IMG/VR virus record: IMGVR_UViG_3300007539_000074
Location: 1 to 35,324 of that record
Length of the DNA stretch: 35,324 nucleotides
Strand: one strand, 5' to 3'
Source of the DNA: a virus
The translations under genes were made by a program, and so were the position numbers. Below are positions 16,406 to 33,304 of this stretch, piece by piece. Under the pieces are notes generated by a model that worked only from the letters and a program-made list of their open reading frames with translations, made no database searches and was not told the origin of the DNA. Positions within the stretch are counted from its first letter, which is position 1; each line of letters starts with the position of its first letter.

Positions 16406-17107
16406 ATGGCTACTAACCAAAACCTACCTTTTAGTGAGACTGAGGTTGATAATGCATTAGGTTATATGATTCTTGGTGTTAGCCAAACACCTACGCCACC
16501 TCCATCACCTACTAGGTTTGTTGAAAGTGATGTTATTCATACATTTTTTGATAACCCAATTACTTTAAGTCAATTTGTTGATGATGCTATAATTACAAGT
16601 GGTGACGGTTTGACTGAGCAATCAAGTAATGACACATCATTTGCAACAACACAAGCAATTGATGAATCATCCCCTGATTATTTTACAACACTTGTAGAAG
16701 ATTGGCTTCCTTATGGTTTTAACAGTACTATGGTTTATCATGCTGGAGTTACAATACCTCATGGTCTGGGTGCTGTGCCAAAAGAGTTTTGGTTCCATTT
16801 TGAATGTTATAATGTAACAGCTGGTGTTGATGGGTTAAGTTCTTCAATTGCACAAGAGTTGTCAGTTAGAGATATTACTGTAGGTCAATTAAATGATTGG
16901 AGTTTAGATGCACCATATGGTGCTATTACTTGGGCTGATGATACTAATCTTTATTTTAAATTTGATAACAATTTATCTTCGTATCCATCTGGGCACACTG
17001 GTTACGCACTTCCTAGTTCAATTTATATAAATCATAATTATTATCTTGGATACGATCACCCTGTTGTTCCAAACTCTCATAGATTAAGAGCAACTGCAGT
17101 ATTATAA
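16406..17107 (+). CDS. Fibre-like protein 2 of a three-gene paralogous set
   Basis: This 233-residue protein shares its plan with its neighbours: LPFSETEVDNALGYMI at the start, a Pro-rich linker with TPTPPPSPTRF, a FVESDVIHTFF segment, then TIPHGLGAVPKEFWFHF and ADDTNLYFKFDNN. Compared with the first copy it has a longer, aromatic-rich C-terminal region, so sequence conservation is highest in the N-terminal and HGLG blocks. It starts 3 bases after the first copy ends and overlaps the third by one base. A tail-fibre or tail-tip adhesin role is inferred. Confidence 0.65.
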   Translation: MATNQNLPFSETEVDNALGYMILGVSQTPTPPPSPTRFVESDVIHTFFDNPITLSQFVDDAIITSGDGLTEQSSNDTSFATTQAIDESSPDYFTTLVEDWLPYGFNSTMVYHAGVTIPHGLGAVPKEFWFHFECYNVTAGVDGLSSSIAQELSVRDITVGQLNDWSLDAPYGAITWADDTNLYFKFDNNLSSYPSGHTGYALPSSIYINHNYYLGYDHPVVPNSHRLRATAVL

Positions 17108-21954: not shown

Positions 21955-22300
21955 TATATTTGTGTTTGACAGCTCTCCAGTATCTTAATGTGGATTCTTT
22001 TTTATATCCATCAGGACCGCCGTTATGTATACGAGCTATATCCTGCAGTGTAGGTTTTCTTCCAAGGCGTTCCTCGGTAGCATATCGAGCCATGTAAGCA
22101 CGAAATATTGGTACAGCTGTTTCTGGTTCTAGGCAATCTTCGTGTACCCAGTCTTTTCCAGCAAATTCTGCAGCGTCTTGTACATAAGCTTTGTGCATTT
22201 GTAGCACACCAATAGCACCTCCGTTATCTCCAATAAGTGAAGGATTTAACGAAGACTCAATTAGCATTAAGCACATTATAAAATCAGTAGGTATCGTCAT
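21938..22300 (-). CDS. Small lytic transglycosylase (SLT-like), probable endolysin
   Basis: Starting at the ATG at 22298-22300 gives 120 residues. ESSLNP begins at E15, the expected catalytic Glu. GAIGVLQMH at 28-36 matches the G-x2-G-hydrophobic-[LM]-Q-[ML] core of lysozyme-like transglycosylases, and IARIHNGGPDGY is the later [NH]-x-G-G motif. The fold cleaves the glycan backbone of peptidoglycan. A longer frame upstream to 22405 runs through the primase gene and is less likely. No signal peptide is present. It sits among replication genes rather than in the late operon, and the internal virion protein lacks this domain, so its timing and role (lysis or entry) are open. Confidence 0.8.
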   Translation of the reverse strand: MTIPTDFIMCLMLIESSLNPSLIGDNGGAIGVLQMHKAYVQDAAEFAGKDWVHEDCLEPETAVPIFRAYMARYATEERLGRKPTLQDIARIHNGGPDGYKKESTLRYWRAVKHKYNDIRR

Positions 22301-23819
22301 TTTGTAAGTCTGGCATAGGTTGTGAAGGGTCAAGATGTAAGTTGTCTTTATGTACACGCCAGCAACGGATCTGAGATCCATTAAAAAACACACGTGAAGT
22401 ATCACCCTTCAGGGTTCGTTTGAGAACTGACAACAACTTGTTGTCTGGTAGTTCATTAAATCTTTGTTGGTTAAGATAATCTTTGAGGTCAACCATACGA
22501 AATACATACCAACCATTAGCTTGTTTGACTGCACCATTTTTAATATGATTAATTTCTTCACTAGCACTAGCACAGAAGGTAGATAGATACTCTACGAACT
22601 GACCGACTGGTGTCATTTCAAATGGTACTTCGATGCGTACACAATTTTTTAGTAGTAGGTTCTGTTGTTTAATCCAATCTTCTTGTTTGATTGGTGGGTA
22701 CTTGAACAACAAGCGTTCCATAACACGCTGATTGAACATATTAAAGTTGTCAAATTCTGCAGTGGTTAGTTGAATTTCTTCGTGATCCAACGTAAGAAAC
22801 CAAAGAGGCGGATCCGACTTAAGTTGAATAAGAGATCTGTTATTAGGCAAGAATTCTTCAGTTCCGATGCCATGTCTTCTTTGTCCGCAGAGCTTAGCGT
22901 CACAGAATCTGCATAACGGTTCTTGTGCACATTGATATTTGTAATCTTTCTTTTCATATGAATTTATTATTGCGTCTACTTCACGGTCAGGTAGTGGTTC
23001 AGAAAACTTTTTGTTAAACTTGTGTAGTCCTGACTTCCAATCAGATGGTTGTGCTTTCTTAAGATATACAGCTACATTGGACAATGTAACGTTACGGTTC
23101 TCTGACTCCTGAGTCCTGTGTTCAAAGATGTAATTAAGACACGGTGGACCTTCTGGTAGCAGCTCTGTTTCTATACTTGGTACTTCTAGTTGTTCAAATT
23201 GTTCTTTTGTCAATGTACGTTCTGTTGCGTACTGTATAAATTGTTCAGGGTTAAGTGCATTATTATCTGTAGTTATACCGTATTGTAAAGTTCTTTCTCC
23301 GCTGTATGGCATATTTATCCAGTTACCATATTTGCTGTCATCTTTACGATTACCTATCTTTGGTTGTTTTGGATATATCTCACATACACCCTGACCAAAG
23401 AATGCAGAGAATGACTTTAGTTTGTCAATAACAAGGCGTGCAGCAATTGGCTCTGAAAAGAATAGGTAAACGTGTGCACCGCCTGATTTAGAACGGCACA
23501 CAACGAATGGTAGATTATGGTGGAAAATTGATTTGTTAAGTTCTTCAATGGTATTTGTGTCTTGGTATACATCTATATCTAATGCACCCCAGTGTACTGT
23601 ATTATCTTCACATATTGGAGTGCAGCCAATAAGTCTTTTACCAGATAGATGGTCTTCCCATATGTCAACAGTAAGTTCTGACTTAACTAAAAATGATTTG
23701 GAATCTTGTTTGCCGTCACGTTCTCTAATCTTACCAGTTAACTGTGTCTGACCAAAGACACTAGTGTTAGATTTGAAGAGCTCGGAGAATTGGGTGGCTA
23801 GATGTGTAAGTGGTATCAT
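22284..23819 (-). CDS. Archaeo-eukaryotic-type primase (AEP, TOTE-like)
   Basis: This 511-residue protein has the AEP metal site DIDVY at 81-85 and SGGAH at 112-116, followed by YGNWINMPY at 164-172, a sequence typical of the TOTE-type primases. Residues 226-254 (PPCLNYIF, GNRN-like ENRNVTLSNVAVYL) resemble the PriCT-like region of phage AEP primases. Four Cys at 297, 303, 306 and 311 form a probable zinc site. Known relatives make primers for phage replication. There is no fused helicase domain. The start codon lies 2 bases after the T-run of a terminator hairpin. It overlaps the transglycosylase gene by 17 bases. Confidence 0.85.
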   Translation of the reverse strand: MIPLTHLATQFSELFKSNTSVFGQTQLTGKIRERDGKQDSKSFLVKSELTVDIWEDHLSGKRLIGCTPICEDNTVHWGALDIDVYQDTNTIEELNKSIFHHNLPFVVCRSKSGGAHVYLFFSEPIAARLVIDKLKSFSAFFGQGVCEIYPKQPKIGNRKDDSKYGNWINMPYSGERTLQYGITTDNNALNPEQFIQYATERTLTKEQFEQLEVPSIETELLPEGPPCLNYIFEHRTQESENRNVTLSNVAVYLKKAQPSDWKSGLHKFNKKFSEPLPDREVDAIINSYEKKDYKYQCAQEPLCRFCDAKLCGQRRHGIGTEEFLPNNRSLIQLKSDPPLWFLTLDHEEIQLTTAEFDNFNMFNQRVMERLLFKYPPIKQEDWIKQQNLLLKNCVRIEVPFEMTPVGQFVEYLSTFCASASEEINHIKNGAVKQANGWYVFRMVDLKDYLNQQRFNELPDNKLLSVLKRTLKGDTSRVFFNGSQIRCWRVHKDNLHLDPSQPMPDLQNDDTY

Positions 23820-23885: not shown

Positions 23886-24626
23886 CTAGAAAGGAGCCTC
23901 CGTAGAAACGGAAGATACAAGTCTAGGAGTTTCCTCAGTCTGGAGCAGAGGAGTATCTGCAGCAGAAGAGTAAGTTTCAGAAGCTTTAATAAGCAACGAC
24001 TCATCTTTCTCAAAGTCCAGAGCAACAGGGTTGCTGAACGAGAAATTATAGTAGTCATCGCCGTTTTTACTAGTTTCCAACACTGTACTAATTTCCCAAC
24101 TTTGGGCGTAGAGTGGTGGTACGATTGTGGAGAGTTCGCCATCATATCTAAATCGGTTAATATCTGCGGTTAGTTTACGAGATACACGAAGTTGTGAAGA
24201 AGTAAACGGTATGATCGCTTCTTCCCAATTGCCGTCAACCTCCATCATAACGAACCAGTAAGTAGTGAAACGCAACTCGTTTTCTCCGAGCCACTCGTCG
24301 TATTGACGTTCTCTACCTTTTTCATAGTCCTTATGACTTACAATGGTTAAAGGGTGTGTAGCTACATAGCCACCACCTTTGTTACGTGGAACCCACTCAG
24401 TGTAAACCGAAGATGTATACGTAGGTATAATCTTGGTTGGTGATGGTACAACGCTCTTTGACTTAGCAAAGAACAGATTACCAGCTTCAGCCCCTGGTAC
24501 ATATTCTTCTTTTTGTTTCTTTAGTTGGGGGCTGAGATCCTGTAGGATTCTCACAAAAGGTAAGGATGAACCTGAGTCTAGGTTCTCCATACCTTGTCCT
24601 GATACTTTTGATATATCGAATGCCAT
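23886..24626 (-). CDS. Probable single-strand DNA-binding-like protein
   Basis: Starting at MAFDISKV gives 246 residues. The core is beta-rich with many aromatics (TYWFVMMEVDGNW, YVATHPLTI, YYNFSFSNP). The C-terminus is polar and ends STEAPF, with Phe as last residue, as in bacterial SSB (DIPF) and T7 gp2.5 (EDF) tails that recruit replication partners. I do not recognise the family by name. Size, position between polymerase and primase, and the final Phe favour an SSB or recombination-mediator role. An upstream ATG at 24734 would overlap the previous gene by far and is less likely. It is the last gene before the strong terminator. Confidence 0.55.
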   Translation of the reverse strand: MAFDISKVSGQGMENLDSGSSLPFVRILQDLSPQLKKQKEEYVPGAEAGNLFFAKSKSVVPSPTKIIPTYTSSVYTEWVPRNKGGGYVATHPLTIVSHKDYEKGRERQYDEWLGENELRFTTYWFVMMEVDGNWEEAIIPFTSSQLRVSRKLTADINRFRYDGELSTIVPPLYAQSWEISTVLETSKNGDDYYNFSFSNPVALDFEKDESLLIKASETYSSAADTPLLQTEETPRLVSSVSTEAPF

Positions 24627-24645
24627 GATTCTTATTTCTTGTTTC

Positions 24646-25227
24646 TTAGTTAACCTTTGCACGTTTACCTTGGTAGATACCAAAGGCGTCTTTGGGCAAA
24701 GTTTCTGCCAGCTCTGGATTGTCCAGTGCATCACGACAGAAAGACTTGAGTGTCATGTTATGAATACCAACTCTTACATTAGCTTCAATGTCATGCTTTT
24801 CTTTCAGAGTTGAAATTATTTCTTGTGCAAGTGCATCATCACCACGACCCAAACTTACACTAATCTCATTCTTGATGATTGAGTCATTGTTAGTTTCACG
24901 TAACCATTGGAAGGCTGTGTTTGGATCTTTGATTTTTGCATCTACAAATTCTTGTATAGCAATCTTTTTACCACTAGCTAAACTAAGTGAGTCAATACCA
25001 GCTTGTTCCATAAGCTGTGGTAAATGTTCCTCTGCAATAGTTTTGCGGTTCTGTTTAAGATTGGAAAGCTGAACTTCTACTTCTAGGATTTCAGCGTCGA
25101 ATCTTTCGAGTTCGGTTGCAAGGTCTGTAAGCTCGCTCATTTGAATATTTCTTTTGTCTTTGATATCAGAGGACTTGTCAGTCCAATCAGCGACATTGAT
25201 AATATTTTCTGGTTGTTCTTCTGCCAT
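24646..25227 (-). CDS. Coiled-coil protein of phage replication module, unknown
   Basis: Starting at MAEEQPEN gives 193 residues; the frame extends 13 codons upstream to 25266, but that would run through the DUF6378-like gene. Residues about 31-70 form a coiled coil (ELTDLATELERFDAEILEVE, then a VQLSNLKQNR stretch). A compact second half holds LSLASGKKIAIQEFV, WLRETNNDSIIKNEISVSLG and a conserved-looking HNMTLKSFCRDAL. Similar proteins occur beside polymerase and SSB-like genes in other phages, from recall; no function is established that I know of. It overlaps nothing and precedes the SSB-like gene by 19 bases. Confidence 0.6.
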   Translation of the reverse strand: MAEEQPENIINVADWTDKSSDIKDKRNIQMSELTDLATELERFDAEILEVEVQLSNLKQNRKTIAEEHLPQLMEQAGIDSLSLASGKKIAIQEFVDAKIKDPNTAFQWLRETNNDSIIKNEISVSLGRGDDALAQEIISTLKEKHDIEANVRVGIHNMTLKSFCRDALDNPELAETLPKDAFGIYQGKRAKVN

Positions 25228-25229
25228 AA

Positions 25230-25508
25230 TTATTTTGAGTTGTATGTTGAACAGAGGTCTGCACAATGTGCGTACCCTGCTATGTCAATCCAATTATCTC
25301 TTTTGTTTTTAAATGCAGTCCGAGATAACTTGAGGGCAATCATCATTGCACCCACCTCACTAGAAGTCAAGTCTGTATTTAGTTTATTTTCAAGAAGTGC
25401 TGACCATATGGTTGCAATTCGTTTAAAGTCATCTGCAGGATGACCATAGTCTGATTGTCTGTCACCGTCAACGAGTCGTGCGGCTTCTACTAGTATTGAT
25501 TGTGTCAT
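25230..25508 (-). CDS. DUF6378-like small protein
   Basis: This 92-residue protein carries the pattern of DUF6378: ILVEAARLVDGDRQSDYGHP, DDFKRIATIWSALL and a central segment with SSEVGAMMIALKLSRTAF, then WIDIAGYAH. GDR-x4-YG and D-hydrophobic-AGY are the most conserved parts. Members are widespread in phages and are often placed near nucleotide metabolism genes; they resemble small all-alpha NTP-pyrophosphatase-like folds, though activity is not established. Its ATG overlaps the stop of the 48-residue gene as TAATG. Confidence 0.75.
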   Translation of the reverse strand: MTQSILVEAARLVDGDRQSDYGHPADDFKRIATIWSALLENKLNTDLTSSEVGAMMIALKLSRTAFKNKRDNWIDIAGYAHCADLCSTYNSK

Positions 25509-25654
25509 TAGAAGTTTGGTTCTATTGTTACTTTGCGTTTGTCAAGGTCTGTTTGGACCTCACTAAAATCATCTTCACTAATTGCTTTCTGTACCTCATC
25601 AATAGTGTTAGCTGTGACTTCGTAAGTCTCTGTTATTGTGAATGTTGTTAACAC
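25508..25654 (-). CDS. Small GTG-started protein (48 aa) overlapping polymerase end
   Basis: This frame begins with GTG at 25652-25654 and ends TAA at 25508-25510. A GGAGG (minus strand, 25661-25665) lies 6 bases before the GTG, the best ribosome site in the module, and it falls inside the last codons of the polymerase gene. The product has a beta-like start (TFTITETYEVTANTIDEVQ), an acidic middle (ISEDDFSEVQ) and ends KVTIEPNF. I recognise no family. It overlaps the polymerase stop by 7 bases and the DUF6378-like start by TAATG, filling a gap that would otherwise be empty. Confidence 0.75.
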   Translation of the reverse strand: MLTTFTITETYEVTANTIDEVQKAISEDDFSEVQTDLDKRKVTIEPNF

Positions 25655-27474
25655 CAGGTACCTCCTAGATCTATGTCTGCTATAACTGGTACTTTGAGTG
25701 GGATTGCTTGTTCCATAATTTCTTTCAACTTATTACTCTCTTGTTCATCTGAAACCATAGCATTTATCTCATCGTGTACAGGGAGTCGTAAGTCCATACC
25801 AGCTTTGTAAGCATGGACCATTGCAACTTTTGCTTGGTCTGCTGCTGAGCCTTGTATCAAACGGTTCAAAGCTTTGGAGCAAAATGCTCGGAAAAGTTGA
25901 CCGTCTGGGTATTTGGATTTTGCATAACCATAGGTTTTGACTGGTGTGTTGTTAAAGTCATTAGTCCAGAAGTCAAAGCGTGCACGACGACCCAATATAG
26001 TTTTGATGTAACCTTTGGTACTGGCTCTGTTCATAACATTGTCAAATAATATCTTTAGGAACGGAGCTTCTTTATTAAATTTTCGCATTGTAGTTTTGCA
26101 AAACTCATCCGATATGCCAAGTGTTTTTGCCATTTTTGACATTCCCATCCCATACGAAATCCCAAGGCAAAGCATTTTGCAGGTGTCGTAAGGTAAGCCA
26201 GTCGTTTTTTCAAAGAATGTATATAATTTTTCACCACGTGTAAATGCATCTAATGCTTGTTCTGCTCCTGGCAGCGGTTTACCAAATTGTCCAAGTAACG
26301 CATAGTGCACTTGGAGTCTTGGTTCCTGACTTGAATAATCTGCTTTACACCAGAGGCTGTCTTGTTCAGCAATATAGAGTTGTCTAATTGCTTTTCCAAT
26401 GTCGCTACGTTTGGGGACTTGTTGCATATTAGGATTAGACGATGAAAGTCGTCCAGACCTAGTACCACCTTCGTCAGACGCTGTCTGTCTAAAGTCTGCG
26501 TGGATTCTGCCATTATGATTTTGATTGAGTATGATGTCTTCGATGAACACTTTACGAAGACGATTGATTGATCGTGCCTCTTGTATCTTTTTTACTTGAG
26601 GGTGTTCACAATGTAGTAGAAAGTCCTTAGCAACTGAGTAATTACCTTTCTCGGTTCTCGGCACTACAAGACCCAAGCTTTCGCAGTATTTACCCAGTTG
26701 CTGGGGAGACCAAATATCTAAAGTTTTAAATTCATTTAACAACGCACTCTCTTTTATTTTGAGGTCATTGTTTAGTTGTTCTGCAGCGTCCAGGTTTACA
26801 GGGACGCCCATCCGTGACATATATACTAGTACAGGTATAAGTTCACATTCTAGTTCCCAGACTGTCCAGAGTCCTTGCTCTTTGAGGATTGGAATTTGGT
26901 GTTGGTAGGCATCATATGTAAGTCTTGCATCAGCTTCAGCATACTTGCCGACGTGTCTGGCAGGGAGCTTCCACATATCGCTCTTAGCATTGATTCCGTA
27001 GGTATCTGCGGCGTTTTGTAATCCATCTTCTTTTTTTCCTTTCTTTAAGTATTTCTTTGCAATTGAGTCTAGTGAATAAGAAAACTTTTCTTCATCAATC
27101 AGTGCTTCGGCAACCTGTATGTCTCGGACTGGACAGGAGACAGAAAGAGAAAGGGTCTCCAGCCAGCCGAGATCATACGTGGCGTTAGCCATTATGATTT
27201 CATCTGCTTTGTTTATTGCACACTTGACATATGAAAGAATAGTTTGCTTATCTAGGTTGTCACCACCGAAGTGGTCAAACGGTAAATATAATTGATGATG
27301 CTTATCTGCGATAGCAACACCAACCACTTTACCATCTCTTCTCTTGTAACCAGGACCAGACTTCTTGATGTTTGGATCGTGAGTTTCAAGGTCAATAGAG
27401 ATAACACTGTCAAGCTCAGGCAACACGGCAGGCGGTCGCCATTTTGACTGTGGTTCAAATAGTGGAATCTGCAT
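25648..27474 (-). CDS. polA: Family A DNA polymerase with 3'-5' exonuclease
   Basis: This 608-residue replicative polymerase has Exo I DLE at 28-30, Exo II ANATYDLGW at 96-104 and Exo III YAEAD at 178-182, so proofreading is likely. Polymerase motif A is KADYSSQEPR (D379), motif B is TCKMLCLGISYG (K433 to G442) and motif C is VHDE (566-569). In motif B the residue four after the Lys, equal to E. coli Phe762, is Leu437. That choice affects dideoxy discrimination and fidelity, and in marine phage surveys Leu is linked with a slower or less virulent style. No DnaJ insertion is visible. It copies the phage genome together with the primase and helicases downstream. Confidence 0.95.
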   Translation of the reverse strand: MQIPLFEPQSKWRPPAVLPELDSVISIDLETHDPNIKKSGPGYKRRDGKVVGVAIADKHHQLYLPFDHFGGDNLDKQTILSYVKCAINKADEIIMANATYDLGWLETLSLSVSCPVRDIQVAEALIDEEKFSYSLDSIAKKYLKKGKKEDGLQNAADTYGINAKSDMWKLPARHVGKYAEADARLTYDAYQHQIPILKEQGLWTVWELECELIPVLVYMSRMGVPVNLDAAEQLNNDLKIKESALLNEFKTLDIWSPQQLGKYCESLGLVVPRTEKGNYSVAKDFLLHCEHPQVKKIQEARSINRLRKVFIEDIILNQNHNGRIHADFRQTASDEGGTRSGRLSSSNPNMQQVPKRSDIGKAIRQLYIAEQDSLWCKADYSSQEPRLQVHYALLGQFGKPLPGAEQALDAFTRGEKLYTFFEKTTGLPYDTCKMLCLGISYGMGMSKMAKTLGISDEFCKTTMRKFNKEAPFLKILFDNVMNRASTKGYIKTILGRRARFDFWTNDFNNTPVKTYGYAKSKYPDGQLFRAFCSKALNRLIQGSAADQAKVAMVHAYKAGMDLRLPVHDEINAMVSDEQESNKLKEIMEQAIPLKVPVIADIDLGGTWC

Positions 27475-27854: not shown

Positions 27855-28268
27855 TTAGACCAGCTTGGAAGCGAGTTGGAAAGTGTTGAGAAATTTTGTA
27901 AAACCATCTTTGTTGAGTGTATACTTGTCTGTCTTGATTGGTTGTATACCATCTTCACCTAAGCTATCTTCATCATACACATTAGCAATCATTGTATTAG
28001 ACTTGGGGTATGCACATAAAGATAAGACGTAGGTAGGCATTGAGTCAATAACTTTATTGGTTTTTATTTGCCAGGCATATTGTTCCGCACGAAGCTTAAT
28101 AGTTTGGAACTTGCTTTCAATAATGAAAACCTGATTCGGCGTGATGATGAGCAGATCAGGGACTCCATTCCCTGTAGTAGTTTCGATGCGTTGCGTAACA
28201 ACTTTTCCTTTATAGTATTCATAGAATTGTTTAGTGATGTATTGATTAAAGTGTTTCTCGGTAGTCAT
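27855..28268 (-). CDS. VRR-NUC family nuclease
   Basis: Starting at MTTEKHFN gives 137 residues, the usual size of stand-alone VRR-NUC proteins in phages. GNGVPDLLII (34-42) with D38, then FIIESK with E51 and K53, form the PD-(D/E)xK site, and AEQYAWQI follows as in the family. Relatives are structure-specific nucleases, some resolving Holliday junctions. The longer frame upstream to 28583 is a shadow of the protease gene. It overlaps the JAMM protease gene by 23 bases, so it is translated with the ubiquitin-like cassette, though its substrate points to DNA metabolism. Confidence 0.85.
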   Translation of the reverse strand: MTTEKHFNQYITKQFYEYYKGKVVTQRIETTTGNGVPDLLIITPNQVFIIESKFQTIKLRAEQYAWQIKTNKVIDSMPTYVLSLCAYPKSNTMIANVYDEDSLGEDGIQPIKTDKYTLNKDGFTKFLNTFQLASKLV

Positions 28269-29379
28269 GTACAGATAGGTTCTCCATTTCTTGGAGAATG
28301 TCATTTTCTGTAACACGGTAGCCAGTCTTTTTACAAGTGTCAAGCTGTTCCGAGAAGAGTTTGTAGAAGTAAGAGCCTTCTGTTGTGGCAAGGAAGATGG
28401 AGTTGCTGAGCATTGCGTGTATGACTCGTGCATACTCCTGGTCTTCCGTTTTGCCTGACGCCAAGTCCATGATGAGCTTGGATGAGTCTTTGCTTTCAAA
28501 CTGTCTATAATAGTCAGTAATAAGTTCCTCAGCGTCAAAGTCCAGCTTAAGATTGAAAAGAATTTCGTCAGCCACATCAGCATTATCTAGTATAGGCTCC
28601 TCCGTAGTTTTTTTTACTTGCATATCTCCCCAATCAGACCAATAGTCTTGATAAGGTCTTTTTGATTTGTATGTCTTGTATGCTGGTATTGTAGCTTTAG
28701 ATACATTGTCCATATAACCAGTAAACTCATACTGCTTGAGGTCAGGTATGATTGCATACTGTTCGTTCATGTACTCTACTTCTAGCTCGTGCATGTCAGC
28801 TGTAAGTTCTACATCATCTTTGAATGGTGACTCAGCACCATCAATAGCTACAGATAAATCGTCTAGCTCGTGACACTGATTGTCAAGACACCAACGGAAG
28901 TGAATGTCAATATCAGGTTTGTTTAGATTACCAATGGTAAAGTGAAAGCCTTCTCGGTTTGTCTCGTCGGCTTCGTCTGTACCAGATTGGAATGCAGATG
29001 TACTACAGTGGTGGTGTACAGTACCAAACATAATGTCTGGATACTGTGCACGCTGTGCTTGGAAGTTGATATGCTCAGGGTCAGACTTAACAGTCATACC
29101 GCTGGTAATCTGGGGTGGAACCCAGAATGACCAAGGTTGTTTCTGCTTCTCGTCATAGTACAAGAAACACATAGTCTCTGACTTTAGCACATCATAGCTG
29201 TGTTTCATAAAGGCAAGGATTTCTTGCCACATAGCGAGAGGGATCTTCTTACCGTGCCATTCAGGCGTAAGGTCTTGAACGACAGGCAATTCAATTGGTT
29301 TATAGGTTGTGAACAGCTTGTTCTTAACCTCCTCGTGAAGTTTGCTTTCGGATATAACATAGTATTTTTTCTTAGGCAT
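28246..29379 (-). CDS. JAMM/MPN+ metalloprotease of ubiquitin-like cassette (JAB)
   Basis: This 377-residue protein holds a perfect JAMM motif: H122-x-H124, seven residues, S132-x2-D135, in TVHHHCSTSAFQSGTDEAD. A Glu upstream in a helix (E53, WQEILAF) is a candidate for the catalytic Glu. SGTDEAD and the following GFHFTIGNL match the Prok-JAB proteins found with phage and plasmid ubiquitin-like genes. These remove or process ubiquitin-like tags. About 200 residues beyond the MPN core form an acidic C-terminal extension of unknown role. It overlaps the E1 gene by 8 bases and the nuclease by 23, showing co-translation with both. Confidence 0.85.
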   Translation of the reverse strand: MPKKKYYVISESKLHEEVKNKLFTTYKPIELPVVQDLTPEWHGKKIPLAMWQEILAFMKHSYDVLKSETMCFLYYDEKQKQPWSFWVPPQITSGMTVKSDPEHINFQAQRAQYPDIMFGTVHHHCSTSAFQSGTDEADETNREGFHFTIGNLNKPDIDIHFRWCLDNQCHELDDLSVAIDGAESPFKDDVELTADMHELEVEYMNEQYAIIPDLKQYEFTGYMDNVSKATIPAYKTYKSKRPYQDYWSDWGDMQVKKTTEEPILDNADVADEILFNLKLDFDAEELITDYYRQFESKDSSKLIMDLASGKTEDQEYARVIHAMLSNSIFLATTEGSYFYKLFSEQLDTCKKTGYRVTENDILQEMENLSVHDYRETL

Positions 29380-30097
29380 AGGATGGTACGGTTATGTCAG
29401 CGAGGTCGCCGAGCGTGATTGTTTCTATTTTACTGAATGTTGTTTGATACTCAACAGGATACCAATCTCCTCGTTCTTGTTCGTCGATTAGATACGGTGC
29501 CCACATATGAATCATCAGATTGCCAAGGGACGCACTCACTTGATTTGCAATAGCGAGTTGTGGAGTTGCTTCGAGTGCATCACCCTGACAGCTGATTGGT
29601 GAACCTTCGTTCGATGTGGTAATCTCAGGATACCTCAAGAACGGATTCATCATAGGATACTGTTGTCCAAGTTCAGGTAGAAAAATGTACGCCTGACTTG
29701 TTGAGTACTCGTTAGCACAAACCAGAACAGGTTTGTTGAGGTCAATAGCAGTGTTAATAAGGTCTCTGCGTGCTGGATGATTGTCTGCATTGCAGATCAG
29801 AATGTCAGCCTGGTTGAACCAGTATGCATATTCTGTTTCCAGCATTTCTTTGTCAAAGTATTGTTGAACTACATTGCATTCGCCTTTACGGAAAGTGTAA
29901 GTCTTTGCGAGTGCGAGTGCTTTGTTCATTCCTACGTGGTTGTTACGAAACAACTGACGGTCAAGGTTTCTTTTCTCAAGAACATCGCCGTCGATCAGTG
30001 TGACCTCAAGGTCAAAACTGTTTTTAAGTGCAGGTAGCATGTATGATGTTACACCACCAGCACCAATGATAAGTGCTTTTAGTTTTGGTTTAGCCAT
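29372..30097 (-). CDS. E1/ThiF-like adenylating enzyme of ubiquitin-like cassette
   Basis: This 241-residue protein has the ThiF/E1 Rossmann signature GAGGVTSY (12-19), the DGD acidic loop at 36-38, the RNLDRQ motif with R43, N44, R47 and Q48 that contacts ATP, and NADN at 103-106. A Cys at 170 (SPISCQGDALEATPQLAIAN) sits where PRTRC-type ThiF proteins have a conserved Cys; it could form the E1 thioester. No zinc-binding CxxC pair is present. Enzymes of this family adenylate the C-terminus of a ubiquitin-like protein. It overlaps the 121-residue gene by 8 bases and the JAMM gene by 8. Confidence 0.9.
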   Translation of the reverse strand: MAKPKLKALIIGAGGVTSYMLPALKNSFDLEVTLIDGDVLEKRNLDRQLFRNNHVGMNKALALAKTYTFRKGECNVVQQYFDKEMLETEYAYWFNQADILICNADNHPARRDLINTAIDLNKPVLVCANEYSTSQAYIFLPELGQQYPMMNPFLRYPEITTSNEGSPISCQGDALEATPQLAIANQVSASLGNLMIHMWAPYLIDEQERGDWYPVEYQTTFSKIETITLGDLADITVPSYA

Positions 30098-30455
30098 TGC
30101 GTTTTAGATATTTGTGAAGTTGTTTACCAGTTACTGGAGCTGGTTTGTGTTGTGTTTCTTGGAAGTGCTTAATGTAGCGAAGTATTGCACCACGCTTACG
30201 ACCAACACCAGTGTCGGAATCATAATAACGACCTAGTATTTTAAATAGAATACGCAGTTCATCGTCTTCAAGACCGTGATGAATTTCGTGCACATCAGCC
30301 AATCTTTTATTCTCAGTGTTGAGTTCATTAGATAAGTTCTGAATATGATGCGGTGAAACCATTTGACCTGGATTCTCATTTGCATATTCAAATGCATAAC
30401 GCAATGATTTATCAGCACTAGGCTTTTCAATTAGTTTGTTGTAGACTGTAGACAT
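30090..30455 (-). CDS. 121-aa helical protein between E2-like and E1-like genes
   Basis: This protein is predicted mainly helical, with HHIQNLSNELNTENKRLADV, DDELRILFKILGRYYDSDTG and a basic C-terminus (KQLHKYLKRNG). I do not recognise it. It lies exactly between the E2-like and E1-like genes, overlapping the former by 25 bases and the latter by 8, so it is made with them. Possible roles are substrate adaptor, E3-like factor, regulator or target of the tag. No Cys or RING-like pattern is present, which argues against an E3 of the RING type. Confidence 0.7.
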   Translation of the reverse strand: MSTVYNKLIEKPSADKSLRYAFEYANENPGQMVSPHHIQNLSNELNTENKRLADVHEIHHGLEDDELRILFKILGRYYDSDTGVGRKRGAILRYIKHFQETQHKPAPVTGKQLHKYLKRNG

Positions 30456-31312
30456 GATGCGAAATCTATAAGGTTGGAGTTAGTAATATCTTGGAAGAAA
30501 CGATTAGATGGTTTGTAGTCTTCATAGTAGTCTGTCATTGCAGATGTAGGTACAGTAACAAAGTCGTTGTCTTTTTTGTACCATACGCAGTGTTTGTAAA
30601 CAAAATCTTCGTAGTACAAGTCACGATTACATTTTGATTTGAATAGTACATCCATTAGATTGGTGACTGCTGTCTGAAGGTAATAGATAGGCATAGGACC
30701 TTGAACTAGTCGTTCATCTCTGAAGTCTCGACCACCGCATAGTCTGCCGTCATCATAGATGTTAGGTAGATTAAAGGTGACAAGGTTTCTAGATGCTTTG
30801 TGTATACCAAACAAGTAAGCTGTTGTTGGGTCAGGAGACTGGTGTAACTTAGCAGTCTTAGAGCCAAGATAACGACAAGGGAGTCTCACCATCAACCACA
30901 TAGAGTAGTCAGTGTTGTTGTACATTGGTATGTCATTTGGCTCGATCATACTTTCAGGTAAGGGTCCTTCTTCTCGTTCTCTTCCAGTTGGTATGAACAG
31001 CTTCCATAGATTGTTGTCGACGTCAGATTCTATGAAACAGGCACCAGGTAACGGAAAACCGTCAGCTAGATTGACGAATGCATAGCAGTATTCTGGATTG
31101 ATACCAGAGTTGTGTGCATAGTAGCAGTGATACTCCTTGTTTAGTACAGGGATTGATACAGGTATGTTAGACATACGGAGAGTATCGTCACGCATACAGG
31201 CAGTAATAGCTGTATCTGCGTCAGCAATGACAGATTCTCTCGTTTCTCGCTTGATAAATTTGCCGTCAGGTCCGAGAATGATTTCCTGACGAAGCGGTAG
31301 TGTTGTTGACAT
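30431..31312 (-). CDS. E2-like conjugating protein (Prok-E2 family D-like)
   Basis: The start at 31310-31312 (MSTTLPL) gives 293 residues; a start at 31339 adds nine poorly placed codons. The landmark is LPNIYDDGRLCGGRDF (182-197), matching the P-x-[VI]-Y-x-x-G-x-[VL]-C-x-G signature of Prok-E2_D/PRTRC protein B, with C192 the candidate catalytic Cys. AYLFGIH at 165-171 is the preceding strand and LMDVLFKSKCNRD at 219-231 the following helix. The family normally has a His after the Cys, but none appears in the KSKCNRD segment; H241 is the next. These proteins occur with E1, JAB and Ub-like genes, as here. Confidence 0.75.
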   Translation of the reverse strand: MSTTLPLRQEIILGPDGKFIKRETRESVIADADTAITACMRDDTLRMSNIPVSIPVLNKEYHCYYAHNSGINPEYCYAFVNLADGFPLPGACFIESDVDNNLWKLFIPTGREREEGPLPESMIEPNDIPMYNNTDYSMWLMVRLPCRYLGSKTAKLHQSPDPTTAYLFGIHKASRNLVTFNLPNIYDDGRLCGGRDFRDERLVQGPMPIYYLQTAVTNLMDVLFKSKCNRDLYYEDFVYKHCVWYKKDNDFVTVPTSAMTDYYEDYKPSNRFFQDITNSNLIDFASCLQSTTN

Positions 31313-31326
31313 AATAATAAAAGAGG

Positions 31327-31388
31327 ACCGATGGCACAATACCTAGATTCTTAGAGATCCATATAAGGTTGTCATATGTACCATCGGT
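31327..31388. repeat. Inverted repeat between Ub-like and E2-like genes
   Basis: ACCGATGG at 31327-31334 is the reverse complement of CCATCGGT at 31381-31388. They flank a 46-base loop in the 83-base gap between the Ub-like stop and the E2-like start. A copy of GTTGTCATAT lies in the loop at 31368-31377. In the mRNA the 8-bp helix would sit 14 bases above the E2-like start codon and could set the ratio of tag to enzymes. It is not a terminator: no T-run follows. Confidence 0.5.
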
Positions 31389-31395
31389 TGCATTG

Positions 31396-31653
31396 TTAAG
31401 CTTTACTTGATGCTTGACGCTCAAGAGTGATCGATGAGTAGTCAGCCACATATGCATCATTGCATAATGTTTGACCGTTTGAAACAGCAACGCATCCCTC
31501 TGGTGCAGACAATGCACCTAAGATGGATGTGTCACGTAGCAAAGAACCTACTGTGAGGTTCTCGTCGAAGGAACGACTAACTGAGTTAGACATTCCATAT
31601 CTGATTGTTATTGTGTTGTTATCCATAAATTCAATTGACAAATCTCTTTTCAT
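31396..31653 (-). CDS. Ubiquitin-like beta-grasp protein
   Basis: This 85-residue protein has the layout of phage/prokaryotic ubiquitin-like (beta-grasp) proteins: a strand ITIRYGMSNSVSRSF, a TVGSLLRDTSIL helix at about 34-45, LSAPEGCVAVSNGQTL, and a last strand SSITLERQASSKA. The pattern 'D-x-T-V-x-x-[LI]-[LI]' followed by 'x-V-x-[NV]-G' is that of ThiS/ubiquitin-fold tags. The C-terminus ends SSKA, not GG. Immediately downstream are E2, E1 and JAMM genes in the same direction, which strongly supports the tag role. It has its own upstream promoter-like site and a terminator before it, so it may be expressed independently of the genes to its right. Confidence 0.75.
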   Translation of the reverse strand: MKRDLSIEFMDNNTITIRYGMSNSVSRSFDENLTVGSLLRDTSILGALSAPEGCVAVSNGQTLCNDAYVADYSSITLERQASSKA

Positions 31654-31708: not shown

Positions 31709-31714
31709 AAATGA

Positions 31715-31750
31715 GCTACTAGCCCACTTGTTGAGCTAGTAGCCTTTTCT
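31715..31750. terminator. Bidirectional hairpin terminator upstream of Ub-like gene
   Basis: A perfect 9-bp stem GCTACTAGC (31715-31723) / GCTAGTAGC (31735-31743), loop 11 bases, is followed on the plus strand by CTTTTCTTT and on the minus strand by TCATTTTTAT. It separates the membrane protein gene (stop at 31807) from the Ub-like promoter. It should end the upstream minus-strand transcript and isolate the ubiquitin-like cassette as its own transcription unit. Confidence 0.7.
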
Positions 31751-31806: not shown

Positions 31807-32145
31807 TTAAGTGTACATTTCATTACATCTAGAGCGAGTGGGATGAGCACCACTGATATCATCTTTGCTATTTTGTGCTTTTGCATACGGAAAACTAAAC
31901 TTGAACAACGGTTTAGGTTTGGGCACGAGCACGGATAGAAAGAAAGTTACGAGGGAAAACATTACACCAGAGATAAAGGCAGTAGCCATACCGCTGAATG
32001 TACCAATAAATAGAACAGGCAGACCGAATGTGAATAAGATGTCCAACAGGACTTGCATTCTTACCACATTCGATATGCCCATTGCTTTACACAATATAAT
32101 AACATATGAAAGTGAGCAGATAAAACTGAGAAATAATATGTCCAT
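31807..32145 (-). CDS. Multi-span membrane protein (112 aa), unknown
   Basis: Taking the ATG at 32143-32145 gives 112 residues; the longer frame to 32208 overlaps the upstream gene by 64 bases and is less likely. Three or four hydrophobic segments are visible: an N-terminal one (ILFLSFICSLSYVIILC), LLDILFTFGLPVLFIGTF, and FISGVMFSLVTFFLSVL, then a polar Lys-rich tail from about residue 81. No enzyme motif. The start overlaps the preceding stop as TAATG. Small membrane proteins of this type occur with ubiquitin-like cassettes in some phages (recall, not checked), so it may belong to the system. Confidence 0.6.
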   Translation of the reverse strand: MDILFLSFICSLSYVIILCKAMGISNVVRMQVLLDILFTFGLPVLFIGTFSGMATAFISGVMFSLVTFFLSVLVPKPKPLFKFSFPYAKAQNSKDDISGAHPTRSRCNEMYT

Positions 32146-32969
32146 TATGATAGCTTGTTGAGTAGTTGTGTGCGTTGATTGCGACGGCGTGCGACCTTGG
32201 TAGCCCACTCTGCATCTGACTCATCTCTACGAGTTGGTGTAGTCATAGCGAATAGCATCTCGATATCCTGTGGATTGTCGGATGTGCGAAGCTGACGAAG
32301 TACCAGCTTGCGATTGTAGTAGGCAGGCTCTGGTAGTGTGTTCTCGTATAGACCAGCAAGAACACCGACGGAACCGTATGGCTTGCCACGATTGCGACGG
32401 AATGTGTCACCGATACGAAGCGAGTTGTCTGGATCACACTCTGGTTCTTGATTGAAAGACTCACGATACTCTTGTATAGATATATACTGCTCGGTGTCGG
32501 ATAGTGGCTCGACAAAGTCAGCCTTGGAACCGAACTCCTCGTATGTCTCGAATGGTACAGAGCGAATGTTTGTGGCGTTCTCTTCGTCATATAACTTGCG
32601 TAAACGCTTAGCAATGTTGAGATACTCACGACGAACCTTGAAGCTGAACTTACGATTGTTAGCCTGACGAATAGCAGTGATGTACTGATTGCGAATGTCG
32701 GCTAGGAACTCAGTCTGTTGTTGACGCATTGCCTGCATACACGACATATCACCAGCGACTTGGTCATCGGCTGGGTTACAGTGATCGATAGTGTCTTGAT
32801 GCTCAGCTACCCAGTCATCGACTAATGTAGCAGGGTCCAACTTACGGTTGGGGACAGCCTTGCAGATAGCCTCGGCTTGACGGAACAATGCACGCCAAGC
32901 GGACTTGTATGCATCGGAATAACGCTCTGCATCGAGAGCTGTATGTACGAGAGATTTGATGTTGTTCAT
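32145..32969 (-). CDS. 274-aa charged helical protein, unknown
   Basis: This protein is rich in Arg, Glu, Asp and Gln with long helices (SDAYKSAWRALFRQAEAICK, AMRQQQTEFLADIRN, then RKFSFKVRREYLNIAKRLRK). A mid segment with RIGDTFRRNRGKPYGSVGVL looks like a small beta domain. I do not recognise the family. By eye its codons are more GC-rich than those of the genes to the left, for example many CGN Arg codons, which could mean later acquisition. It is translationally coupled to the membrane protein downstream and lies upstream of the ubiquitin-like cassette on the same strand. Confidence 0.65.
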   Translation of the reverse strand: MNNIKSLVHTALDAERYSDAYKSAWRALFRQAEAICKAVPNRKLDPATLVDDWVAEHQDTIDHCNPADDQVAGDMSCMQAMRQQQTEFLADIRNQYITAIRQANNRKFSFKVRREYLNIAKRLRKLYDEENATNIRSVPFETYEEFGSKADFVEPLSDTEQYISIQEYRESFNQEPECDPDNSLRIGDTFRRNRGKPYGSVGVLAGLYENTLPEPAYYNRKLVLRQLRTSDNPQDIEMLFAMTTPTRRDESDAEWATKVARRRNQRTQLLNKLS

Positions 32970-33013: not shown

Positions 33014-33304
33014 TTAAGCTGTAAAGAAGTCAGTAGGTACAGCATAGACTGAATGATAGTGATCACCGTTGTCACGCTTGCCATCTTCTGTGGTTACGAC
33101 AATGTCAATAACATCACCTGACTTGCCAAGAGGACGGTTGTCCCTGTGCCAGAAGGTGTGAGATTGTTTGTCTCGTGTGATAACTTTGGTAAGTGCGAGA
33201 GGCTGAGTAGGATCAGAGTTGTTAGGTATGTCTGAGCTAGCCTCGATAACAAGAACTGTTGCAGTTGATGTTGTGTTTGGTTGATTAAGTGTGATTGTAT
33301 TCAT
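33014..33304 (-). CDS. Small beta-rich protein (96 aa), unknown
   Basis: This 96-residue protein begins with a Thr/Asn-rich stretch (NTITLNQPNTTSTATVLVIE) and later has LTKVITRDKQSHTFWHRDN and GDVIDIVVTTEDGK, a plausible small beta fold. Many of its residues are polar and it has no Cys. No family recognised. It lies 44 bases upstream of the 274-residue gene and 6 bases below a candidate 50-residue gene, on the strand and in the position of first genes of the minus-strand transcript. Confidence 0.6.
   Translation of the reverse strand: MNTITLNQPNTTSTATVLVIEASSDIPNNSDPTQPLALTKVITRDKQSHTFWHRDNRPLGKSGDVIDIVVTTEDGKRDNGDHYHSVYAVPTDFFTA

Follow-up and report, generated by a model that had tools for sequence, protein, structure and literature searches.

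The 35,324-base virus record IMGVR_UViG_3300007539_000074 of IMG/VR (39% G+C; this whole stretch is referred to as the window) carries on its minus strand the genes of what is likely an active ubiquitin-like conjugation cascade, to judge from the motifs and profiles of its predicted proteins. The cassette comprises a ubiquitin-like modifier (Ubl), a protein resembling conjugating enzymes (E2), a 121-residue protein (p121), an activating enzyme (E1) and a JAMM metalloprotease (Table 1). The gene order along this strand is Ubl, E2, p121, E1, JAMM, nuclease and then polA, the gene of a family A DNA polymerase, so that the cassette lies upstream of polA; helicases and a primase are encoded on the same strand, and the plus strand holds tail and virion genes, recognized by PHROG matches. 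The tail tubular B-like protein shares 26-28% identity with its counterparts in Pelagibacter podoviruses (e.g., HTVC024P and Greip), and on the strength of the tail genes it seems fair to call the phage "podovirus-like". A preliminary description of this DNA had reported five open reading frames (ORFs), with overlaps of 8-25 bp from E2 on to the nuclease, and had read them as an apparently complete Ubl, E2, E1 and JAMM set on such a phage. All five lie on the minus strand where it placed them, apart from a refined start for Ubl, and the set is borne out by motifs, profiles, fold and gene order. The overlaps are 25 bp between E2 and p121, 8 bp between p121 and E1, 8 bp between E1 and JAMM, and 23 bp between JAMM and the nuclease, the last counted from the conserved nuclease start (28268) indicated by the starts in relatives.

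Table 1. Features of the cassette and its immediate surroundings in the window
Feature	Positions	Strand	Basis or distinguishing mark
Ubl, 76-aa ubiquitin-like modifier, tail ...ITLERQASSKA-stop	31396..31626	-	AlphaFold2 fold; invariant Lys-Ala end
Ubl-E2 spacer with terminator-like hairpin (ACCGATGG...CCATCGGT, T-rich tail)	31313..31395	-	Compensatory changes
E2-like conjugating protein, 293 aa, candidate catalytic Cys192 in NLPNIYDDGRLCGG	30431..31312	-	Profile match and Cys motif
p121, 121-aa cassette protein, conserved GRKRGAILRYIK core	30090..30455	-	Conserved between E2 and E1
E1/ThiF-like activating enzyme, 241 aa	29372..30097	-	GAGGVTS nucleotide site, RNLDRQ, ADNHPAR, candidate transfer Cys170 (ISCQGDALEATPQLAIAN)
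JAMM/JAB metalloprotease, 377 aa, C-terminal part variable	28246..29379	-	H122-x-H124-x7-S132-x2-D135 zinc site
VRR-NUC/NERD-like nuclease, 137 aa	27855..28268	-	Weak Pfam/PHROG nuclease matches
Family A DNA polymerase (polA)	25648..27474	-	PF00476 1.4e-56; lineage anchor, outside the cassette

Because direct hidden Markov model searches gave no usable matches for Ubl and E2, both were assigned by fold and profile comparison. Ubl, which has no sequence-family match in the profile libraries, begins in relatives at the second ATG (31626), so that it has 76 aa and not the 85 aa of the ORF 31396-31653. Its AlphaFold2 model, built with 19 aligned sequences, reaches a predicted local distance difference test score (pLDDT) of 89, and the best PDB matches of this model include ubiquitin, NEDD8, ISG15 and an archaeal ubiquitin. 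Both the model and its matches are those of a beta-grasp protein, the fold that the preliminary description had proposed and whose absence, as it stated in advance, would have refuted its reading. The C terminus reads Lys-Ala-stop in all 38 distinct ORFs of the family. The terminal Ala uses four codons and neighboring positions vary synonymously too, indicating that selection acts on the protein, and the invariant tail is consistent with covalent joining of the Ubl C terminus to targets. The body of the modifier is almost devoid of lysine (6 in 2635 residues, and none at all in 31 of 36 proteins), whereas the lysine content of neighboring proteins is 6.1%. When evolution was simulated 1000 times along the Ubl tree, with the composition of the neighbors applied uniformly to all sites, the median number of lysines was 155 and the minimum 26; the observed depletion thus exceeds every simulation. 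Given this one-composition model, the absence of Trp as well from Ubl, and the existence of a lysine-poor protein on the structural strand (16406-17107, plus strand, 233 aa, just 2 lysines or 0.9%), other causes of the depletion are possible.

The E2 protein has no direct match in the family libraries, NCBIfam included, and 4 of 19 family members match PF14460 weakly (best 0.067). Compared as a profile, the family matches a PRTRC_B/Prok-E2_D set, made up of plasmid proteins together with those of phages D69 and Arash, at E = 3.6e-7 and with the Cys motif in register, and it matches the plasmid-only PRTRC_B members at E = 1.7e-5; as controls, the best of 60 column-shuffled profiles reached 0.06 and the reversed profile 0.036. 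Cys192 lies within the motif PN[IV][YF]xxGx[IL]CxG, which is found, with minor variation, in 43 of the 45 distinct E2 ORFs, the two outside this count being short (86 and 109 codons). The cysteine singled out beforehand is therefore kept in relatives. In the AlphaFold2 model (pLDDT 76), strands at 136-148, 153-156, 164-171 and 177-180 precede Cys192, and a helix at 210-225 follows it. A Foldseek comparison of this model with viral models returned one uncharacterized phage protein (3.3e-7), and no PDB sequence matched the profiles of E2 and PRTRC_B or the active-site fragment.

The two remaining enzymes are recognized more directly. E1 matches ThiF (PF00899) at 9.7e-18 and PRTRC_ThiF (TIGR03736) at 6.3e-8, the latter with 32.3 bits, which does not reach the cut-off of 144.75 bits. 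Among solved structures, its family profile scores best with the E1s of SUMO and NEDD8 (1e-8 to 1e-9, including 2.7e-9), and it also matches Citrobacter BubCD at 9.5e-5. The protein combines a Rossmann ATP site, an RxxxRQ-type motif, a DN..R motif and a conserved Cys, the features expected of an E1/ThiF-like enzyme, as which the preliminary description had read it; the segment with the Cys, Q and N residues is present in 45 of 48 distinct ORFs, and the remainder are fragments or failures of the pattern. JAMM matches PRTRC_A (TIGR03735) at 1e-7, again short of the cut-off (31.7 against 101.8 bits), and the exact H-x-H-x7-S-x2-D signature already noted for the window recurs in 54 of the 55 distinct ORFs of its family.

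We gathered relatives of the locus through scans of IMG/VR with E2, E1, JAMM and polA and through one genome scan. Counted by contig name, 36 IMG/VR contigs besides the window have Ubl, E2, E1 and JAMM in an unchanged order, as does one contig of a Sneathiella metagenome-assembled genome (MAG). The preliminary description had suggested such a search for the gene order, and its conservation in 36 further contigs excludes chance. When genome contigs were scanned with the E1 alignment, the Sneathiella MAG locus stood alone among the matches listed, with no close bacterial chromosomal relative. Sneathiella was considered as a host and set aside, as the idea rested only on one 19-kb contig binned with that MAG and was too weak. 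To quantify conservation, we anchored the loci on polA, retaining those with a polA at least 52% identical and with at least about 4.6 kb upstream. The complete cassette is present in 27 of the 29 loci that qualify. One of the two exceptions (L069) begins inside the E2 gene, at a contig end, and the other (L126, on the 42,895-bp record G001) is without the cassette; in loci whose polA is about 37% identical, no cassette was seen. The polA of L126 is 57% identical, and the cassette position is taken up, over about 6 kb, by small genes unrelated to it. Neither an E1 nor a Ubl match was found anywhere in this record, nor was p121 detected by profile, nor the 274-aa protein (p274) encoded near Ubl in the window, but the membrane-protein gene, the nuclease and polA are retained. 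The cassette is near-universal in the lineage, and its genes are there together or missing together.

This distribution separates the two genes that the preliminary description had offered as possible effectors. The nuclease stands beside polA and is kept there in L126; it is therefore part of the replication arm and not of the cassette, and it is probably not an effector. By contrast, p121 was found by profile in every complete locus except L132 (contig 3300017732_000017), the most divergent complete cassette (polA 53%), where a 159-codon ORF takes its place. Judged by these profile matches, p121 does belong to the cassette. A match of p121 to AimR was discarded because it did not reach the cut-off and fell for the most part outside the conserved core. 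Between clades, identity is 45-78% for Ubl, 40-73% for E1 and 34-52% for JAMM, but falls to 26-46% for p121 and to 23-33% for E2, in which the catalytic motifs are nonetheless retained. Such fast evolution of E2 and p121 would suit proteins that handle the targets.

The closest known parallel lies in the PRTRC cassettes of plasmids. Iyer et al. (2006) listed in row 6d of their Table 1 operons with Ubl, JAB, E1, E2 and an alpha-helical protein (PMC1779556), which in our own reading correspond to the PRTRC families (TIGR03735 PRTRC_A, TIGR03736 PRTRC_ThiF, TIGR03737 PRTRC_B and PRTRC_C). As in the window, PRTRC cassettes have separate genes for a small Ubl, an E2 (PRTRC_B, Prok-E2_D), a JAB protein (PRTRC_A) and an E1 (PRTRC_ThiF), and the E2 Cys motif and the E1 Cys region are common to both. 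Plasmid and phage D69 Ubls of the PRTRC type have Thr-Lys-Gly as their last residues, and the end they share with the window Ubl is thus [ST]-K-[GA]-COOH. The differences concern gene order, which is Ubl-E2-p121-E1-JAMM in the window but C-(F)-B-A-ThiF in PRTRC, the Ala-ended and nearly lysine-free modifier, and the location in a phage replication arm. The window has no PRTRC_C-type Ubl with a C-terminal Gly (the Ubl has no library match and an Ala tail), no PRTRC E or F was identified with the set, and no ParB-like match was found among the window proteins scanned, a few proteins remaining outside the scan and the record being perhaps incomplete. The absence of ParB agrees with the earlier characterization of the set as PRTRC-like without it. 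With all models far below cut-off or without a match, and with no ParB found, we do not regard the set as a PRTRC cassette; on sequence grounds, it works like a PRTRC-type cascade and shares ancestry with it for E1, JAMM and E2.

Comparable sets are found in larger phages. Vibrio phage D69 encodes a three-repeat Ubl ending in GTKG, an E2 (PRTRC_B 0.0057), a JAMM protein (PRTRC_A 4.2e-20; identical in D181 and D148) and an E1. Salmonella phage Arash has E2, JAMM and E1; Bacillus phage vB_BauM_KLEB27-3 has E2-like, PRTRC_A and ThiF genes; and partial sets occur in Acinetobacter phage ME3 and crAss-like phage cr106_1. They resemble the window in having E2, JAMM and E1 as neighbors, with the same Cys and JAMM motifs, but their order is E2-JAMM-E1, they include extra genes, and their Ubl is either a series of lysine-containing GTKG repeats or not recognized. 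Moreover, these genomes measure about 100-235 kb, against 35-45 kb for the podovirus-like lineage studied here. Judged by gene content, PRTRC-like sets borne by phages are not unique to the window. We found no publication describing a phage-encoded E1-E2-Ubl conjugation cascade in a search that mostly left out subscription papers and left out preprints wholly; the literature on the subject that it turned up was just Iyer et al. (2006) and reports on tail proteins.

We therefore suggest, with reasonable but not full confidence, that Ubl, E2, p121, E1 and JAMM form a self-contained and reversible modification pathway of the phage's own, which acts early in infection on a protein of the host or of replication. 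E1 would use ATP to adenylate the C-terminal alanine of Ubl and hold the modifier as a thioester on Cys170; Ubl would then pass to Cys192 of E2, which, probably with p121, would attach it to lysines of target proteins, from which JAMM would strip it again. With no residues encoded beyond the mature tail of Ubl, JAMM is likelier to be a deconjugase than a maturase, and since the body of Ubl is nearly free of lysine, targets would mostly receive a single tag rather than chains. The position of the cassette genes among primase, helicases and polA points to a host or replication protein as the target and to early infection as the time, and the purpose may be host take-over or counter-defense. Thus, a lineage of marine viruses of bacteria probably tags proteins of the infected cell with its own near-lysine-free modifier. 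A stronger version, which we put forward only tentatively, is that the lineage relies on this reversible tagging, and that the lysine-poor modifier with its Lys-Ala end evolved against self-consumption as it marks early host or replication proteins.

Several observations weigh against this pathway. Ubl ends in Ala and not in Gly, and its comparison with PRTRC_C-type Ubls by hhalign was not significant. With the AlphaFold2 model of the 293-aa protein, Foldseek retrieved no match from the PDB, and so no known E2. The E2 assignment of the preliminary description consequently stands in its profile match and Cys motif but not in its predicted structure, and a UBC fold may be said to be backed by sequence and context, not by structure. 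At one locus (L112; G008:C1:2237-2935) the E1 match crosses an in-frame TAA stop, which may represent a sequencing error, an alignment running beyond the gene end, or a decaying copy. Finally, no E3 or substrate was identified in the analysis, and one near relative, L126, lives without the cassette.

Among the other explanations, the one that survives best is that the cassette is a phage-borne defense against competing phages. Bil, BUB and CBASS Cap2/Cap3 operate on related principles: a Ubl or a protein tail is activated by an E1 and passed on by an E2, and a JAB protein removes it. A cassette serving superinfection exclusion would, like Bil or BUB, tag incoming phage proteins. Bacterial antiphage operons are indeed similar in gene content, and the fastest-evolving proteins are E2 and p121, which would fit contact with changing targets. 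However, among the 29 lineage loci with enough flank, 27 have the cassette, at a fixed position in the replication arm, and it is not patchy like typical carried defense genes. PADLOC matched only E1, and this to generic E1-E2 profiles, although its 2023 library may lack Bil and BUB models. The window set also differs from Bil, BUB and CBASS in being phage-encoded rather than anti-phage (Bil is set apart here without direct sequence comparison), and from CBASS Cap2, an E1-E2 fusion, in having separate E1 and E2 genes. We consider a defensive role unlikely.

Alternatively, the set could modify phage structural proteins during assembly. Mass spectrometry of an Arash particle preparation listed gp246-gp248, the proteins matching E1, JAMM and E2 (PMC10585845), a sign that the equivalent genes are translated in that phage. 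This list holds many enzymes, however, and its authors noted that some may be abundant infection proteins left in the preparation (PMC10585845). Phage Ubl and JAB pairs are also employed in tail assembly by the TAPI (Ubl) and TAPK (JAB) genes of lambda and T1 (PMC1779556), but these lie in the tail module without E1 or E2, whereas here a full cascade lies in the replication arm. The cassette shares its strand with the replication genes, and the structural genes are on the other one; this favors an activity early in infection over one in the virion, to which we give little credence. That Ubl is a ThiS/MoaD-like sulfur carrier, with E1 and JAMM in a small-molecule pathway and no protein conjugation, is highly improbable: the best single-protein NCBIfam matches of E1 are ThiF and MoeB, but Ubl is without a Gly-Gly end, no rhodanese, ThiG or MoaE-like neighbor was identified, the set includes an E2-like protein whose Cys motif is conserved, and the E1 profile prefers, among solved structures, the SUMO and NEDD8 enzymes.

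Most ubiquitin-like systems so far studied in bacteria are defenses against phages. If our reading of the cassette as a phage conjugation pathway is true, a phage lineage with E1, E2, Ubl and JAMM in its core genome would have turned this chemistry to the attacker's use. What sets this case apart is the combination of a near-constant part of a phage lineage with an unusual modifier, and such a compact system, with its Ala-ended, near-lysine-free Ubl, may offer a route to what uncharacterized PRTRC-type cascades do.

The spacer between Ubl and E2 may bear on the relative amounts of these proteins. In the window and four close relatives, its hairpin shows compensatory changes (CCGATGG/CCATCGG, CCAATGG/CCGTTGG and TGTCCT/AGGACA) and leads into T-rich DNA. 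At this site, a second clade carries a GC-rich hairpin of unrelated sequence, with a T run after it in at least one member, and in a third clade the hairpin is weak or missing. A leaky terminator is a plausible inference, and in the two clades with a hairpin it may allow more modifier to be made than enzymes. A promoter scan gave no excess relative to shuffles. A further terminator-like hairpin of 13 pairs lies at 31714-31744 (minus strand), between a small membrane-protein gene and the Ubl gene.

Upstream of Ubl, the minus strand carries three genes (31807-32969 and 33014-33304) encoding proteins of 96 aa, 274 aa and about 110-130 aa with membrane segments; none has a family match, and the three are found upstream of Ubl in many relatives where the flank allows. 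Elsewhere on the same strand, a primase-like protein (22284-23819) matches the archaeo-eukaryotic primase domain of TOTE conflict systems at 1.7e-14, and two genes at 23886-25266 match proteins of phage Pam3 (gp34-like, 7.2e-38; gp33-like, 2.4e-25).

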